From assembly GCA_025360015.1 (NCBI GenBank), contig JANYCZ010000011.1:62001-126000 (forward strand): a stretch of DNA of 64,000 bases, written 5' to 3'. The DNA comes from Verrucomicrobiota bacterium. Lineage in GTDB: Bacteria; Verrucomicrobiota; Verrucomicrobiia; Verrucomicrobiales; Verrucomicrobiaceae. Positions 5,080 to 10,674 of this stretch are shown in pieces. A program made the position numbers and the translations under genes. The stretch's first letter is position 1; the number at the start of each line of letters is the position of its first letter. The notes beneath the pieces are model-generated. The model was given only the letters and a program-made list of their open reading frames with translations, searched no databases and was not told where the DNA came from.

Positions 5080-5260
5080 AAAAGAACTCGATCTTTGGAA
5101 TGCTGTTAAGAAATCAGTTCTTGCTGGATCATGCTGGCTTGTCATGATCGATGAGTAAAGCCAATGAATCGGACAGCGATCCTATCCTACGCCAGAAACT
5201 CGTCACACCGGGCAGCATCATGCAATGGTTGCGATGCTTTGGATCTGCGGTCGCGCCGCA

Positions 5261-5269
5261 AGGGAGGGG
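5261..5269 (+). promoter_or_regulatory. Shine-Dalgarno that fixes the start of the kinase-like gene
   Basis: AGGGAGGGG lies about 9 bases before the ATG at 5277. The open frame could start at 5151, but that start has no ribosome-binding site and the extra 42 residues look non-conserved, so 5277, just before the zinc-ribbon cysteines, is preferred. Confidence 0.7.
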
Positions 5270-5276
5270 ACGTCTG

Positions 5277-6221
5277 ATGGCCTGGGTTGCAATAACCTGC
5301 CCACAGTGCTCTGCGCCACTCCCGCGAGTGGCCATCTGGAGGGCAGTGAAATGCCCGTCTTGTGGCGCACTCATCAACAGGACGGAATCGATTGTGACGC
5401 GAGATTCGTTTCGTCAGGCGTTGCTGCGTGCCCGTCAAGATTACGATGGCGCTGGAGCCGACCTTCAATGTGGAGGGGAAAGTTATCATGTGATCCAAAC
5501 TCTGGGGAGCGGAGAAATATCCCAGGTCTATCTCGCGCGACGAGTCGGTCCGCAGCCATTTCTGGCGACCATCAAGGTTTCTACCGCATCTGCTTCTGCG
5601 GCGCGATACGCCCGCGAGGCCGAAGTGCTGCGTGAACTGCAGGCTTCGCAAAGCGGTGAGGCCAGTATTTACGCGGCACAGCGTCTGCCTGAAGTCATTG
5701 CACAAGGACCCGTGGAAGGAGGTGCCTTCAAGCAGGCGCTCGTGCTGCGGCACCCGATTGGTTATTGGGGGAGTCTGGAGGCACTGAGCGAGCGTTTTTC
5801 ACAAGGCATCGATCCACGCCATGCCGTATGGATCTGGAGGCGCCTGCTCGATGTGTTGCATTTTTTGCATGCCCAAGGCTGGTCACATGGTAATGTGCGG
5901 CCAGAGCACGCGCTGGTGCATGTGCAGGACCACGGCGTTCGCCTGATTGGATGGGCGTCGGCGAAAAAGGATGCGGGCGAGGAAGGCCAGGCCAAGGATT
6001 TGCTGCGTTGCGCCAGGGTGGTGCGGGTTCTGGTGTGCGGGGCTGGCGGATCAGGCGTGATTCCGCATGGAGTGCCCTCCGGCTTGTCTGAGCTCTTGAC
6101 GCTGTCCAGTGAGGATGAGAGTTTTTGCCGAACGCACGGGGGTGGAGGATTGGACGCCTTGCTGCGAACAGCGGCCCAGGCAGCCTTCGGTGTGCCATCG
6201 TTCCTGCCCTTGGTCATTTGA
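5277..6221 (+). CDS. Zinc-ribbon protein-kinase-like protein, probable pseudokinase
   Basis: 314 residues from the chosen start. The N-terminus is a zinc ribbon (C8-x2-C11 and C26-x2-C29). Residues about 70-310 look like a protein-kinase fold: a glycine-rich loop (LGSGEISQVYLA, 76-87), the ATP-binding lysine in ATIKV (K100), an acidic helix C (AREAEVLREL) and a catalytic-loop position. That loop reads H204-G-N-V-R-P-E-H instead of HRDLKPEN, so the catalytic aspartate is asparagine, and the DFG position reads I-G-W with no metal-binding aspartate. The protein is thus predicted to bind nucleotide at most, or to use an unusual mechanism. It starts a three-gene unit with a vWA gene 42 bases downstream and then a PurA-like gene. 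Kinases with zinc ribbons next to vWA genes are known from TerY-P type triads; here no phosphatase gene is present. Kinase-fold assignment is good; activity is uncertain. Confidence 0.72.
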   Translation: MAWVAITCPQCSAPLPRVAIWRAVKCPSCGALINRTESIVTRDSFRQALLRARQDYDGAGADLQCGGESYHVIQTLGSGEISQVYLARRVGPQPFLATIKVSTASASAARYAREAEVLRELQASQSGEASIYAAQRLPEVIAQGPVEGGAFKQALVLRHPIGYWGSLEALSERFSQGIDPRHAVWIWRRLLDVLHFLHAQGWSHGNVRPEHALVHVQDHGVRLIGWASAKKDAGEEGQAKDLLRCARVVRVLVCGAGGSGVIPHGVPSGLSELLTLSSEDESFCRTHGGGGLDALLRTAAQAAFGVPSFLPLVI

Positions 6222-6263
6222 CGTTTTGATTCCGCAAACAAACAACTCAACCACCAATCATCC

Positions 6264-7229
6264 ATGGGATACGGAAACTACTCTTTAGCCGCTCACACCG
6301 CATTGATCGCCTGCCGTTCGCATCAGGCTCGTGCGGAAGTCTTCAGCCAGACGCAATGCCACGCACTCATGAATCCGAAAGGGCTGAAGGTGCGCGAGTG
6401 CCGGGACAGCGCGGATCATCCCAATACGCTGGGAATCGTCTTTGCCCTGGATGTCACAGGATCAATGGGGGACATCCCGCATCTGCTGGCAAAGCAGGAG
6501 CTGCCCAACCTGATGAAACTGCTTAACGCATGCGGTGAGGCGGACCCTCAGGTCATGTTCATGGCGGTCGGCGATGCCACCTCAGACCAGGCCTCCTTGC
6601 AGGTGGGGCAATTTGAAAGCACGGCGGAGCTGATGGATCAGTGGCTTACCTGGAGCTATCTGGAAGGCGGTGGTGGCGGCAGCGGCCAGGAAAGTTATGA
6701 ACTGGCGTTCTACATTGCTGCTCAGCACACCGACATGGACAACTGGGTGAAGCGCAAAAAGAAGGGGTATCTCTTCATGACGGGTGACGAGCTGCCTTAC
6801 CCCGCCGTGTCACGCCACCAGATCGAAGCCCTGGTTGGTGAAAAACTCGACGAGGATATTCCGATTGAAGAGGTGATCGCCGCTGCTGCTGAGAGCTACC
6901 ATCTTTTCTACCTGATTCCCGATGCGGGGCGGGCAAAGCGCTGCGGCTCTCGCTGGAGACAACTCCTTGGAGATCATACCATCATCATGGAGTCGCCAAG
7001 TGATGCGTGCTCAGTGGCGGCTGCCATCGTGGGGTTGACCGAGGGGCGCATCCCAAACCTCGACGCCTTGGCGACAATCTTGTCCACCAATGGATTCAAT
7101 CGCGAGCATGTGGGGTCGACCATTCGCGCTGTCCAGCCTTATGCCGCACTTCTTCATCTGCCATCGCTGTCTTCAGCCAGCTCAGGAGCATCGACTGGGG
7201 ATTCGTGGTGGAAGCGTTTGTTTGGATAG
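6264..7229 (+). CDS. vWA-domain protein of the kinase-like/PurA-like unit
   Basis: 321 residues, no signal peptide, so cytosolic. The vWA fold starts near residue 55: IVFALDVTGSMG carries the MIDAS metal motif as D63-x-T65-x-S67 (threonine in place of the first serine). A second conserved turn AVGDATSDQ and a third GYLFMTGDELPYP would complete the metal site and core sheet. A glycine-rich loop (LEGGGGGSGQES) sits between them. vWA domains in bacterial cytosolic complexes act as metal-dependent protein-interaction modules, often paired with kinases, ATPases or chaperones. The gene lies between the zinc-ribbon kinase-like gene (42 bases upstream) and the PurA-like gene (9 bases downstream), so a shared complex is likely. 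The protein partner and role are unknown. Confidence 0.82.
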   Translation: MGYGNYSLAAHTALIACRSHQARAEVFSQTQCHALMNPKGLKVRECRDSADHPNTLGIVFALDVTGSMGDIPHLLAKQELPNLMKLLNACGEADPQVMFMAVGDATSDQASLQVGQFESTAELMDQWLTWSYLEGGGGGSGQESYELAFYIAAQHTDMDNWVKRKKKGYLFMTGDELPYPAVSRHQIEALVGEKLDEDIPIEEVIAAAAESYHLFYLIPDAGRAKRCGSRWRQLLGDHTIIMESPSDACSVAAAIVGLTEGRIPNLDALATILSTNGFNREHVGSTIRAVQPYAALLHLPSLSSASSGASTGDSWWKRLFG

Positions 7230-7238
7230 CCTTCACCT

Positions 7239-8594
7239 GTGAGTGGAACTCGTTATGCTTCGGTGCTTGGGCTCGGCTTTGGCGACTGTGGGAAAGGGCT
7301 CTTTGTTGACGCGCTGACGCGGCGTTGGCGGGCTCATACTGTGGTTCGTTTTAGCGGAGGAGCACAGGCCGGACATAACGTAGTGACCTCTGCCGATGGC
7401 GGAAACGTGGGACGACATCACACATTTTCTCAGTTTGGCGCGGGCACACTGGTGCAGGGAGCGCGCACGGTGTTGCTTGATCCGATGGTGCTGCACCCGA
7501 CGGCCCTGCTGGTGGAGGCAGAGGCTCTGGGCCGCATCGGCGTTCATGATGCGCTCTCGCGTCTGATGATTGACGCTCGTTGTCGTATCACGACTCCCTA
7601 TCATCAGGCTGCAGGAAGGGCGCGCGAACTTCTGCGCGGTGAGGCAGTTCATGGGACCTGCGGTGTGGGTGTGGGCGAGACGGTGCGTCACGCGCTGGCT
7701 CGCCCCGATCAGGTGATGCGATATGCCGATCTTTCAGGTGCCAACGCATCCCATGTGCGGGAGCCGCTGGACAAACTTAACTCGATTCGAGAGACGCTTT
7801 TCGCGGAGCTTTCTCCGCTGTGTCCACGAAACGGGGGAGGAGCATTAACGGTGGAGATGCAGACTTTGCAGGATGAGACCTTGGCCAGGAAATGGTTCAA
7901 TGTGGCACGAGCGCTTGCGCGCCAATGCGCTCCAGCTTCCATCGAGATGATAGGCGCTCAACTAAGGCAGCCCGGATGCGTTCTGTTTGAGGGGGCGCAA
8001 GGTGTGCTCCTCGACGAATGGTGTGGTTTTCATCCACATACGACCTGGAGTTCCATCACCACGGCGGCAGTGGACGCAGCTGCCGCATGTTTCGATTTTG
8101 CAGCACCCATCGAGCACTATGGTGTGCTGAGATCCTACCATACGCGACATGGGGCCGGTCCGCTTCCGACACACGATGAATCGTTGAATGACTTGCTGCT
8201 CGAGCCGCACAACCACTCTGAGGGCTGGCAGGGCCGCTTTAGGAGCGGACATCCCGATGCCGTGCTCTTGCGCTACGCGTTCGAAGTGACGGGGCCGTTG
8301 AATGGGCTGCTGGTCAGTCATTTGGATGTGTTTCAACGCTGCACGTCGCTCAAGTGGTGTGAGAGTTATTCGACCCCTTCGTCGCCCTTCATTGATCGAC
8401 TTCCCATTGGCACCCGCGGTGACTTGTCACACCAGATCATGCTGACCAATCTTCTCGAGGGTGCCCGACCCCAGTATGCTGTGGATTCCATCGATTCCGA
8501 CCGGAAATATCTTGATCGCATTGCCAGTGTGACTGACCTGCCGGTCATGCTGCGCTCCTACGGCAACACCAGTGCGACGGTCCTTGGGCAGTGA
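7239..8594 (+). CDS. Divergent adenylosuccinate synthetase-like enzyme
   Basis: 451 residues, starting with GTG 9 bases after the vWA stop. It aligns by eye to PurA along its length: the P-loop-like GFGDCGKG (13-20) with the catalytic aspartate D16, the catalytic histidine in AGHN (H46), the IMP-side loop GTCGVGVGETV (139-149), FEGAQGVLLD (250-259), the Y-x-T-R-x-G-A-G-P-x-P-T block (300-311) and the guanine-contact region VSHLDVF (359-365). Oddities are E-to-C inside the usual GDEGKG, lysine-to-histidine in the TKLD-type motif, and a changed arginine-rich aspartate-binding loop. PurA joins aspartate to IMP using GTP. Here the catalytic pair survives while both nucleotide- and substrate-selecting loops have changed, so I infer a paralogue acting on another purine-like substrate. 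Housekeeping PurA is the main alternative; the divergence and gene company argue against it. Confidence 0.75.
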   Translation: MSGTRYASVLGLGFGDCGKGLFVDALTRRWRAHTVVRFSGGAQAGHNVVTSADGGNVGRHHTFSQFGAGTLVQGARTVLLDPMVLHPTALLVEAEALGRIGVHDALSRLMIDARCRITTPYHQAAGRARELLRGEAVHGTCGVGVGETVRHALARPDQVMRYADLSGANASHVREPLDKLNSIRETLFAELSPLCPRNGGGALTVEMQTLQDETLARKWFNVARALARQCAPASIEMIGAQLRQPGCVLFEGAQGVLLDEWCGFHPHTTWSSITTAAVDAAAACFDFAAPIEHYGVLRSYHTRHGAGPLPTHDESLNDLLLEPHNHSEGWQGRFRSGHPDAVLLRYAFEVTGPLNGLLVSHLDVFQRCTSLKWCESYSTPSSPFIDRLPIGTRGDLSHQIMLTNLLEGARPQYAVDSIDSDRKYLDRIASVTDLPVMLRSYGNTSATVLGQ

Positions 8595-8679
8595 TGGGCG
8601 CCTGTCTTGACGCCATCTTGACAAATCTCCGACGAATCCTTGAACCCGTCCTGACGCAGGGAGAGTTAGAGTCAGCGTT

Positions 8680-10674
8680 ATGAAAGCTCTTTCGATCCTT
8701 GTCCTGTTCACGACCAGTCTTTCTGCCCACACTTGGGAAGCCGGTGCATCCACCGACAAAGAGAGTCTGCGCCAGCATATTTTGGAGGAGTGGATGCAGC
8801 AGCGCGCGGTGTCGATGCAAGGAGAGATCAAGCCGGTGCAGGTGGCTTCGACGGCGTCAACTTTGAACCTGGCTGCGGCAGCGGCGGCCAATGCGGCGAA
8901 CGCACCGGCGGTGGCGAAGCCCTTCCTGGCTTTCCCAAGGCTCGAACTGAAGTGGGACAAGGATTTCCTTTTTGTGGGATCGAATGGGCTGCCGGATCAT
9001 GGCATGATGGTGGGCATCACCGCGTGGCAGCAGCAGGTGCCGCTGCCGCAGAACTACACGGGGGACAACGCGTGGCGCATTCCTCTGCACCCGGTTCCGG
9101 CGAAAACGCCAGCCATTGTGGAAGGGCATTTTCTGCGGGGGGCCATCGCTCTCGGTGTGAACGGCATCCCGATTTTCAACCCGCAGAACAACCGTGGCGA
9201 GGTCTCCTATGAGATCGGTGAGCTGGATCAGTGGGGGGGGCACTGCGGGCGGGCGGATGATTACCATTACCATATCACGCCTTTGCATTTGCAGGCGGCG
9301 GTGGGGAAGGGGATGCCGGTGGCGTATGCGCTGGATGGCTACCCGATCTATGGACTGACGGAGCCTGACGGCTCGCCAATTGGCAGGCTGGACGAGTGCC
9401 ATGGACATGAGAATGCCAAGGTGGGCTACCACTATCATGCCTCGACGAAACGACCGTATTTGCAGAGCGCATTTCATGGCGTGGTCGTGGAGGCCGATGG
9501 CCAGGTGGATCCGCAGCCGCGTGCGCAAGGCGTGCGCCCTGACACAGCGCCCCTGCGTGGAGCTGAGATCACCGGTTTTGAGAGTGCGGGATCAAACGGC
9601 TATAAGCTCAGTTATCAGGTGGGTGGGGAGAAGCGCTCGATCTCTTACCGCATCAATGGCGACGGCACGTATCCTTTTGAGTTTAACAACGGTCGCAGCG
9701 GCATCGTGAAGGAAGTTTATGCCAGACGGGGTGGCGGGGGCAGGGCAGTTGGCCAAGGGGGAGCGCCGCCAGCTTCTACGGCCAGCGGCTTTGTGTTGAC
9801 CAGCCCTGAAGTGGTGGATGGCGGCAATCTGCCGAAGGATTACACGGGTGACGGCAGCGGTGCGACACTGCCTCTTGAATGGAAGGGCGCACCCGCTGGC
9901 ACGAAGAGCTATGCTTTGATCATGGATCACCTTGCTCCAGGCAATGAGATGAAGAGCTACTGGGTCATGTGGGACATCCCAGCGAAAGTGACGAGCCTGC
10001 CGAAGAATGTGAAAGGCGTGGGCAGGCTGGGGGTGGGCTTCAGGGGCGAGCCCGGCTATGAGCCGCCGCATTCGCAGGGGCCCGGGGCGAAGACTTATGT
10101 GCTGCATGTTTATGCGCTTTCAGCTGAACCGAAGATCACCGGCTCATCGAGCGTGAGGCGCGAAGCATTGCTCGCGGCGATGGAGGGAAAAATCCTCGCG
10201 AAGGCAGATCTGAGCGTGGTTTACACGCGTGGTGGTGAAGCGCCGCCATCGGCACAACCCAGGCCTCCACAGAGTGGAGGGCAGCCGGGGGGACAGCGCA
10301 AACCGTGGATGCAGACGCATGGTGCGGAGCTGGACAGCAGCGGCGATGGCTTCGTCACGCTGGAGGAGACGCTGGAGGACATGAAGGCTGCTGCTTTGAA
10401 ATACGATGCGGACAAGAATGGCATCATCACTCTGGCTGAAATTGATGCAGCTGGTGACATTCGCGAAGGTGCCGTTTTTGCGGGGTTCATTTACAGACAT
10501 GCTTTCGAACTGGATGCCAATCAGGACAGCCAGTTGACCAGCGCCGAGTTCGAAAAAGCGGCGAAGCATCTTTTTGATTCCACGGATTTGGATCACGACG
10601 GCAGGCTCACGCCGCAGGAAGTGCAGAGTGCTCCCAATGTGCGGCTGGGCAACCCGGGGGTGCCTCCGAAATGA
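8680..10674 (+). CDS. Secreted YHYH - PEBP-like - EF-hand fusion protein
   Basis: 664 residues with a signal peptide (1-16, ending LSAH). Three modules follow. Residues about 90-310 are a YHYH domain: DDYHYHITPLHL and GYHYHAS, with a conserved DGYPIYG and CHGH. Residues about 365-510 resemble the YbhB/YbcL phosphatidylethanolamine-binding family (ALIMDHLAPGNEMKSYWVMWDIP). Residues about 540-660 contain EF-hand-like calcium loops (DSSGDGFVTLEE, DADKNGIITLAE, DANQDSQLTSAE, DLDHDGRLTPQE). YHYH proteins are exported and uncharacterised. The histidine pairs suggest a metal or substrate site, and the EF hands suggest calcium-dependent stability or signalling. The stop overlaps the sulfatase start by 4 bases, so the two are translationally coupled. 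The module assignment is confident; the function is not known. Confidence 0.8.
   Translation: MKALSILVLFTTSLSAHTWEAGASTDKESLRQHILEEWMQQRAVSMQGEIKPVQVASTASTLNLAAAAAANAANAPAVAKPFLAFPRLELKWDKDFLFVGSNGLPDHGMMVGITAWQQQVPLPQNYTGDNAWRIPLHPVPAKTPAIVEGHFLRGAIALGVNGIPIFNPQNNRGEVSYEIGELDQWGGHCGRADDYHYHITPLHLQAAVGKGMPVAYALDGYPIYGLTEPDGSPIGRLDECHGHENAKVGYHYHASTKRPYLQSAFHGVVVEADGQVDPQPRAQGVRPDTAPLRGAEITGFESAGSNGYKLSYQVGGEKRSISYRINGDGTYPFEFNNGRSGIVKEVYARRGGGGRAVGQGGAPPASTASGFVLTSPEVVDGGNLPKDYTGDGSGATLPLEWKGAPAGTKSYALIMDHLAPGNEMKSYWVMWDIPAKVTSLPKNVKGVGRLGVGFRGEPGYEPPHSQGPGAKTYVLHVYALSAEPKITGSSSVRREALLAAMEGKILAKADLSVVYTRGGEAPPSAQPRPPQSGGQPGGQRKPWMQTHGAELDSSGDGFVTLEETLEDMKAAALKYDADKNGIITLAEIDAAGDIREGAVFAGFIYRHAFELDANQDSQLTSAEFEKAAKHLFDSTDLDHDGRLTPQEVQSAPNVRLGNPGVPPK

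Follow-up and report, generated by a model that had tools for sequence, protein, structure and literature searches.

A recurrent gene trio of bacteria and large phages joins a divergent PurA-like enzyme to a vWA protein and a predicted pseudokinase

Results

Three Adjacent Genes

We describe a unit of three genes in a 64,000-nucleotide stretch of DNA from a Verrucomicrobiota bacterium (GenBank assembly GCA_025360015.1, contig JANYCZ010000011.1, positions 62,001 to 126,000), which we call the window. The genes follow one another on the forward strand with intergenic gaps of 42 and 9 bases. They encode a kinase-like protein made of a zinc ribbon and a pseudokinase part (5277-6221; 314 amino acids), a vWA protein (6264-7229; 321 amino acids) and a relative of adenylosuccinate synthetase, here called PurA-like (7239-8594; 451 amino acids, GTG start). 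The open reading frames (ORFs), coordinates and gaps are those given by an earlier account made from the letters alone (the sequence-only reading). A homologue shares the MAW(V)..CPQC beginning of the kinase-like protein, which supports the start at 5277, and 6264 is the first possible start of the vWA frame. The first gene was assigned from Pfam, PHROG and family alignments, the second from phrog_2971, a weak Pfam VWA match and PDB fold matches of its model, and the third from Pfam, phrog_1211 and the fold match of its model. All three parts have PHROG counterparts: phrog_3043 (kinase; 3.6e-16), phrog_2971 (function unknown; 5.3e-50) and phrog_1211 (8.7e-65), the last labelled 2-aminooxy adenylosuccinate synthetase.

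Recurrence in Bacteria and Phages

The same order and strand (kinase-like, vWA, PurA-like) recur in large phages and across nine bacterial phyla: Verrucomicrobiota, Pseudomonadota, Myxococcota, Chloroflexota, Actinomycetota, Planctomycetota, Acidobacteriota, Fibrobacterota and Patescibacteria. Each phylum has at least one locus in which all three genes were detected; the scan of bacterial and archaeal genomes behind this statement takes in the best 80 of 174 loci, many of them metagenome-assembled, and some phyla are known from such genomes only. Recurrence in unrelated genomes with conserved adjacency, which the sequence-only reading had named as a sign of a true system, is thus found. Among the 90 loci examined (phage and same-genus copies included), 75 have the full trio, 12 the vWA and PurA-like genes and 3 the PurA-like gene alone, in a count where some loci share a genome and some are cut by contig ends. 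The vWA gene occurs in 2 of the 240 genomes of a phylum sample, in 20 plasmid records and in 206 phage records, 188 of the latter from Mycobacterium phages (RefSeq and GenBank copies are counted separately in the approximately 190 mycobacteriophage records). PurA-like matches were found in 222 phage records, at least one being an ordinary purA by annotation, and matches to the phage kinase-like protein in 191; viral contigs add at least 402 vWA relatives. Phages Tonenili and I3 have the order kinase, vWA, PurA-like, with one small gene separating the last two in I3, and a vWA-PurA pair is present in one Vibrio phage and one Rhizobium phage. In the latter (RHph_TM30; locus L115, 2942-5269), HAD, PRTase_3 and Nudix genes lie near the pair and resemble the nucleoside part of Ter systems.

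How tightly are the genes associated? A PurA-like gene lies within 5 kb downstream in 284 of 299 distinct vWA relatives (75 of 76 in bacterial or plasmid records and 209 of 223 in the phage group), a count that leaves out five relatives without a start codon followed by Gly. The set had been reduced by 141 duplicates (identical first 250 vWA residues) and 6 truncated starts, and its phage group, drawn mainly from IMG/VR contigs, includes a few that look bacterial, such as L122, which is similar to Variovorax loci. Fifteen loci fall outside the count, and a recheck covered eight of them. The contig of L187 ends inside the PurA-like gene, which in L468 is divergent and upstream and in L409, L483 and L485 is located elsewhere in the same record. 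In L123, L133, L170, L172, L252, L277, L442 and L476 the record ends within 1.3 kb past the vWA gene, and for L381 and L121 no PurA-like gene was found in the records searched.

Of the 223 loci in the phage group, a kinase-like gene was detected in 84. In phages, a gene of approximately 115 amino acids often stands in the slot before the vWA gene (37 loci), and in a few a methionine-rich protein does. Since this slot is variably filled, the enzyme-vWA pair is the core of the unit. The approximately 115 amino acid gene (GAF..SLKRNNKQIRDDRA...LDLSP) stands directly upstream of the vWA gene in these 37 viral loci, e.g., L131 (9645-9995); it seems to replace the kinase-like gene in many phages, and the copy tested (L131) had no PHROG match. 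The methionine-rich protein is of low complexity and precedes the vWA gene in Vibrio phage Va1 (L114, 7222-7932) and in viral contigs L144, L166 and L185. In L085 (8071-9983), two tandem vWA-type genes, each with an MGYG.YS start, precede a single PurA-like gene. The trio of L038, a metagenome-assembled genome labelled Bordetella parapertussis, groups with Verrucomicrobiota, probably through an error of binning or naming.

Insertion Site and Mobility

Among 56 related genomes, five carry the vWA gene and the same five carry the divergent PurA-like gene; a sixth relative, G024, has the PurA-like gene only, in a copy at a contig end. The arrangement of the trio is not due to chance, as its order and strand recur in distant genomes and the presence of its parts agrees among relatives. 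In three sister genomes (G001, G002 and G023) the genes that flank the trio are adjacent, with a gap of approximately 110-130 bases; the trio is missing and the site is otherwise intact. These flanking genes are a response regulator and, as read by eye, a YHYH-type protein. Comparison of the flanks places the acquired segment at approximately 5089-8680, with left-flank homology of the window reaching approximately 5082-5088. A different insertion, with genes read as BlaR/MecI-type, occupies the same intergenic site in G013 (L507, 3927-8041), and for this reason the site may be an insertion hotspot. In a tree of the enzyme, viral and bacterial PurA-likes interleave, and well-supported branches force at least four changes of label. 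As part of the explanation that we prefer, and with odds somewhat short of even, the unit would be a horizontally moving module common to bacteria and large phages and built around a PurA-family ligase with a vWA partner dedicated to it.

The PurA-Like Enzyme

The PurA-like protein of the window matches Pfam Adenylsucc_synt at 1.2e-58, above the curated cut-off, and falls far short of the scores set for purA equivalogs (162 bits vs. 402 for PRK01117; 132 vs. 396 for TIGR00184). The sequence-only reading had left room for a housekeeping enzyme; this is ruled out by a separate canonical purA elsewhere in the genome (G000:C58), which scores 603 bits against 199 for the window protein. The best matches of the predicted model (predicted local distance difference test score, pLDDT, 84.8) are PurA structures, with a template modelling (TM) score by query of approximately 0.73, compared with 0.58 for PurZ. 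Trio and viral PurA-likes form one clade (support 99, stem 1.46) apart from the sampled PurA rows. The tree holds 147 of 189 rows, with 28 rows (mostly Variovorax), 12 of the 26 canonical rows and rows of at most 250 amino acids omitted; the order to which the window belongs supplied 25 of the 26 canonical rows, and the canonical grouping itself is weakly supported (17).

We compared residues in 88 trio rows (bacteria, plasmids and phage records), 73 viral-contig rows and 26 canonical rows; the counts given here are of trio and viral rows that have a letter at the column. The equivalents of D13 and K16 are kept in 157 of 157 rows, of H41 in 160 of 160 and of Q224 in 158 of 159, and the guanine-site D333 equivalent is kept as in PurA. 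In the window, the catalytic D16, K19 and H46 lie at 7284-7376, a span that also holds Q43 in place of canonical N38. N38, T129, R143, V273 and T301 are positions that we take to be IMP or aspartate contacts in E. coli PurA. Gln replaces N38 in 159 of 160 rows, and of 160 rows at T129, 137 have Cys and 20 have Val. At V273, the Val of TRVG, all 159 of 159 rows have His (window H304), and at T301 all 159 of 159 have Gln (window Q331), changes found in none of the 26 canonical rows. R131 is mostly Val, and the R143 column is mixed. Taken together, N38, T129, V273 and T301 are changed in all save at most three of the 159-160 rows, and the 26 PurA rows are canonical at the compared columns. The rewritten substrate site of the window (8148-8243) comprises H304 (canonically V), N325 and W330-Q331-G332 replacing T-T-G. 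Because the T-T-G-R loop is one residue shorter, R303, given as a ligand contact of PurA in the available part of PMC8342488, has no clear equivalent.

Judged by these residues, the phosphoryl-transfer machinery is kept and the surroundings of the IMP and aspartate sites are rewritten; the sequence-only reading had seen as much in the window, where it found Asp16 and His46 kept and the substrate loops changed. The PurA-likes share with PurA the fold, the catalytic D13, K16, H41 and Q224 and the guanine-site Asp, and differ from it in their separate clade, their rewritten residues and their place, nearly always beside a vWA gene.

PurZ, the 2-aminoadenylosuccinate synthetase of Z-DNA phages, likewise has the PurA fold and is phage-borne. 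The PurZ row of phage S-2L, whose branch is too long to place in the tree, has Ser in place of D13, with V273 and T301 unchanged, whereas the PurA-likes keep the Asp and change the other two. The window protein reaches 26.7 bits against a curated PurZ score of 300. PurZ or Z-DNA identity is ruled out by the residues, in a comparison with one PurZ (S-2L), and by the scores. One might still picture a variant of PurA or PurZ that supplies nucleotides or modifies DNA and so feeds phage DNA synthesis: the gene is common in large phages, in some of them near genes read as replication genes, and is annotated as adenylosuccinate synthetase. Against this stand the separate clade with its long stem, the changed surroundings of the IMP and aspartate sites, the absence of PurZ features and the presence of the gene in bacterial chromosomes, where in this genome the unit was inserted alone between two other genes. 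Such a role seems to us very improbable.

The vWA Protein and Its N-Terminal Tail

The second protein matches Pfam VWA at 0.019, below the curated cut-off, and a sequence search of PDB with it gave no match. A structure search with its model finds the vWA fold (E-value 2.5e-5, TM by query approximately 0.4). The metal ion-dependent adhesion site (MIDAS) motif D63-V-T-G-S67 (6450-6464) has D63, G66 and S67 invariant in the alignments, so that fold and motif both bear out the vWA domain with a MIDAS that the sequence-only reading had recognized.

The protein begins with MGYGNYS (6264-6284), a tail that is conserved among relatives and that we propose as an acceptor end. A start codon followed by Gly is found at the aligned start in 299 of 304 distinct vWA relatives; the N-terminus was looked for no farther than 12 residues from that position. 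Of the five exceptions, three (L315, L410 and L443) have a similar Gly-rich start without the usual start codon. The tail follows the motif M-G-x-[G/S]-x-[Y/W/F]-[S/D], with Gly or Ser at position 4 in 269 of the 299, an aromatic residue at position 6 in 294 and Ser or Asp at position 7 in 266; in 224 of 299, the start followed by Gly is also the first one possible. As a background, 63 of 1366 other ORFs of the viral loci, which are mechanical calls with uncertain starts, have Gly as their second residue. Conservation of 85% is reached over residues 8-35 of the bacterial set by R18 and H33 only. Residues 1-6 are modelled with pLDDT below 50, as a disordered tail would be.

The Kinase-Like Protein

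The first protein matches Pfam Pkinase (8.4e-7, below the curated cut-off) and Kdo (5.2e-6, above it), together with weak zinc ribbons. In PADLOC it matches defence kinases (PglW, mad6, PD-T4-6 and MkoA) and zinc-ribbon proteins, and the vWA and PurA-like proteins of the window have no match there. Its CxxC...CxxC ribbon (C8, C11, C26 and C29; 5298-5363) has its four cysteines conserved at 0.86-0.91 among homologues, and 54 of 71 bacterial kinase-likes have the CxxC pair. In other lineages a J-domain-like part with an HPD-type motif replaces the ribbon: 71 of 84 members from the phage group and 14 of 71 from bacteria carry the H/N-P-D motif, and Pfam DnaJ matches, all below the curated cut-off (1.7e-4 to 0.11), were found in 7 of 12 homologues scanned.

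From the catalytic loop to the DFG position (5886-5954, including His219) the window protein is degenerate, reading HGN for HRD and IGW for DFG. Both Asp residues are kept in 1 of 153 relatives, the first only in 36 and the second only in 29. Among bacterial relatives, few have Asn where HRD has its Asp (2 of 69; the closest ones read HGD), and most, 64 of 71, lack the DFG Asp. The helix-F Asp is present in 150 of 155 members, the family-specific His219 in 155 of 155, and the N-lobe Lys in 65 of 69 bacterial vs. 37 of 80 phage-group members. Going by these residues, the kinase-like protein is a pseudokinase across the family, which extends to the relatives what the sequence-only reading had said of the window protein, and an active protein kinase is rejected. 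Bixzunavirus records annotate the corresponding genes as kinase or serine/threonine kinase and as 2-aminooxy or PurA-like adenylosuccinate synthetase; as far as the residues tell, neither activity is supported as named.

The J-domain-like and vWA parts suggest the handling of client proteins, and the kinase partner is already degenerate. The PurA-like protein could then form a chaperone-like complex with the other two and serve there, without making a product, as a GTP-driven switch or scaffold; to this idea we may add that the accessible text of PMC9503650 calls vWA a peptide-binding chaperone in related conflict systems. A pure switch, however, would not need the equivalents of D13, H41 and Q224, which are kept in all but one of 161 rows where the letter is present, and we find this distinctly unlikely.

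The TerY-P triad consists of a vWA protein, a PP2C phosphatase and a kinase. The sequence-only reading had likened the unit to it, and the joint presence of vWA and kinase-like genes is indeed common to both, as is, for Ter signal synthesis, the PRTase_3 and HAD pair near the vWA-PurA genes of the Rhizobium phage. That combination is described in the available portion of PMC7824862, which does not mention adenylosuccinate. The likeness goes no further: the PurA-like gene replaces the phosphatase, the search for PP2C, confined to the three window proteins, gave no Pfam match, and 152 of 153 relatives have a degenerate kinase. TerD has no match in this genome, in a search that matched 2 of 14 control genomes (Ter genes near other loci were not profile-searched). 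With neither PP2C in the unit nor TerD in the genome, membership in Ter or TerY-P systems is rejected for this genome, and we give almost no weight to the unit being a variant of them.

Neighbouring Genes

A rival reading, which takes up the main idea of the sequence-only reading, is that the unit makes a free modified purine, a signal or inhibitor formed from a 6-oxopurine, GTP and an unusual amine, and that the vWA protein and pseudokinase sense a threat and switch the enzyme on. Conserved phosphoryl-transfer residues beside two rewritten substrate sites agree with it, and so do some neighbours: winged-helix Nudix proteins of the NrtR type near the unit on Agrobacterium and Rhodovulum plasmids (a match on a Rhodococcus plasmid is weak, 0.0018, below the cut-off), an NMNAT-Nudix gene in L072 and the PRTase_3 and HAD pair of the Rhizobium phage. 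A strict Nudix box occurs near the trio six times in 76 bacterial loci and not once farther off in 859 kb, which is a small share of the loci; in the 223 phage-group loci it occurs three times, with no excess over positions farther off. A rough clustering of flanking ORFs, in which the trio was merged into one cluster and wrong-strand ORFs were included, showed no other gene fixed beside the bacterial trio. The free purine also leaves the conserved vWA tail unexplained. We hold it to be somewhat unlikely, though it is the chief competitor of the conjugation reading discussed below, and a NAD or ADP-ribose pathway as the main function is rejected, the NrtR-type and Nudix neighbours being real yet a minority. 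What stands of the sequence-only reading as a whole is the recurrence, the separate purA and the pseudokinase; the comparison with TerY-P does not.

The NrtR-type genes stand beside the unit or divergent from it in L120 (6085-6798), L121 (6101-7231) and, with the weak match, L117 (10372-11019). In L072 (4052-8989), a metagenome-assembled genome of the Rhodocyclaceae, the trio comes directly after putative NAD-salvage genes on the same strand (NMNAT-Nudix by Pfam; pncB and nadE by eye). The accessible part of PMC9503650 describes systems of vWA with Nudix regulators and an ADP-ribosylglycohydrolase; some of our loci likewise have vWA with NrtR-type regulators, and they differ in that the plasmid loci read, which were not profile-searched for it, have no gene annotated as ADP-ribosylglycohydrolase.

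Discussion

A Possible Conjugation to the vWA Tail

It is tempting to hypothesize that the PurA-like enzyme acts on the vWA protein, joining a 6-oxopurine to its N-terminal glycine, a reading to which we assign a probability of about 0.4; the reaction, its acceptor, the purine and the biological role are what we infer from the comparisons above. PurA phosphorylates the 6-oxo group of its purine, and an amine then displaces the phosphate. By analogy with the action of PurA on IMP, the PurA-like enzyme would transfer a phosphate from GTP to the 6-oxo group of a hypoxanthine-type purine. C6 would then be attacked not by aspartate but by the amine of Gly2 of the vWA protein, exposed by removal of Met, and the vWA protein would end up carrying a purine, perhaps as the nucleotide, through N6. 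The pseudokinase, by its zinc ribbon or J-domain-like part, may work as an adaptor for the vWA protein, presenting or controlling it, perhaps via a chaperone, and the modified vWA protein may act through its MIDAS in phage-host or stress conflict.

We were led to this proposal by the retained activation residues, the rebuilt amine and nucleotide sites, the conserved, flexible glycine tail of the one protein that nearly always accompanies the enzyme, and precedents among enzymes of the QueC type. In the available text of PMC13279940, the target of the QueC-like Cap9 is an MGGS protein, whose N-terminal glycine (Gly2) receives a deazaguanine; QatB, for its part, requires its MGTS tail. The qatABCD and type IV CBASS systems (QatC and Cap9) described there thus resemble the unit in combining a nucleobase-biosynthesis enzyme with a partner that has a flexible Met-Gly N-terminus. 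They differ in that the enzyme has a QueC fold there and a PurA fold here, in the fold of the partner, and in that the modification is here a proposal. The purine is suggested by the D13 column: in the accessible part of PMC8342488, the Ser of S-2L PurZ adjoins the 2-amino group of dGMP, and the Asp kept by the PurA-likes at this position suggests hypoxanthine over guanine. The conserved vWA N-terminus points more to protein conjugation, which the sequence-only reading had not considered, than to a free modified purine. In its most specific form, the proposal is that a PurA-family enzyme joins a hypoxanthine-type nucleotide through C6 to the vWA glycine, as a second family independent of QueC, with an adaptor pseudokinase and exchange between bacteria and phages; in all these details together we consider it possible though doubtful.

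Several points weigh against conjugation. The nucleotide site is so altered, by its residues, that the substrate may not be a nucleotide monophosphate, and the conserved MG tail could serve another purpose. An upstream start codon is also possible in 75 of 299 vWA relatives. Covariation between the vWA tail and the PurA-like protein gave no support; Gly2 cannot covary because it never varies, and the strongest covarying pairs involve the vWA core and look phylogenetic. One PurA-like gene has no vWA partner (L110, a 4 kb contig that also holds an ORF read as a transposase), and the kinase-like gene, seen in a minority of phage-group loci, is not essential to the core.

Novelty and Implications

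No paper describing the trio was found in the literature searched, from which most subscription papers were absent. The parts available to us of the papers on Pinkcreek (PMC9476963) and the cluster AK Arthrobacter phages (PMC11468179) mention a PurA-like gene only by its name. Annotation in the phage records that were read calls the parts of the trio purA-like, serine/threonine kinase and hypothetical protein. We rate the trio as a categorically new gene system, and its PurA subfamily needs a name of its own even if the conjugation reading is wrong. If that reading is true, the chemistry would extend nucleobase-protein conjugation with a protein modification not yet known for the PurA family, and the enzyme would be a second central-metabolism ligase repurposed in phage-host conflict.

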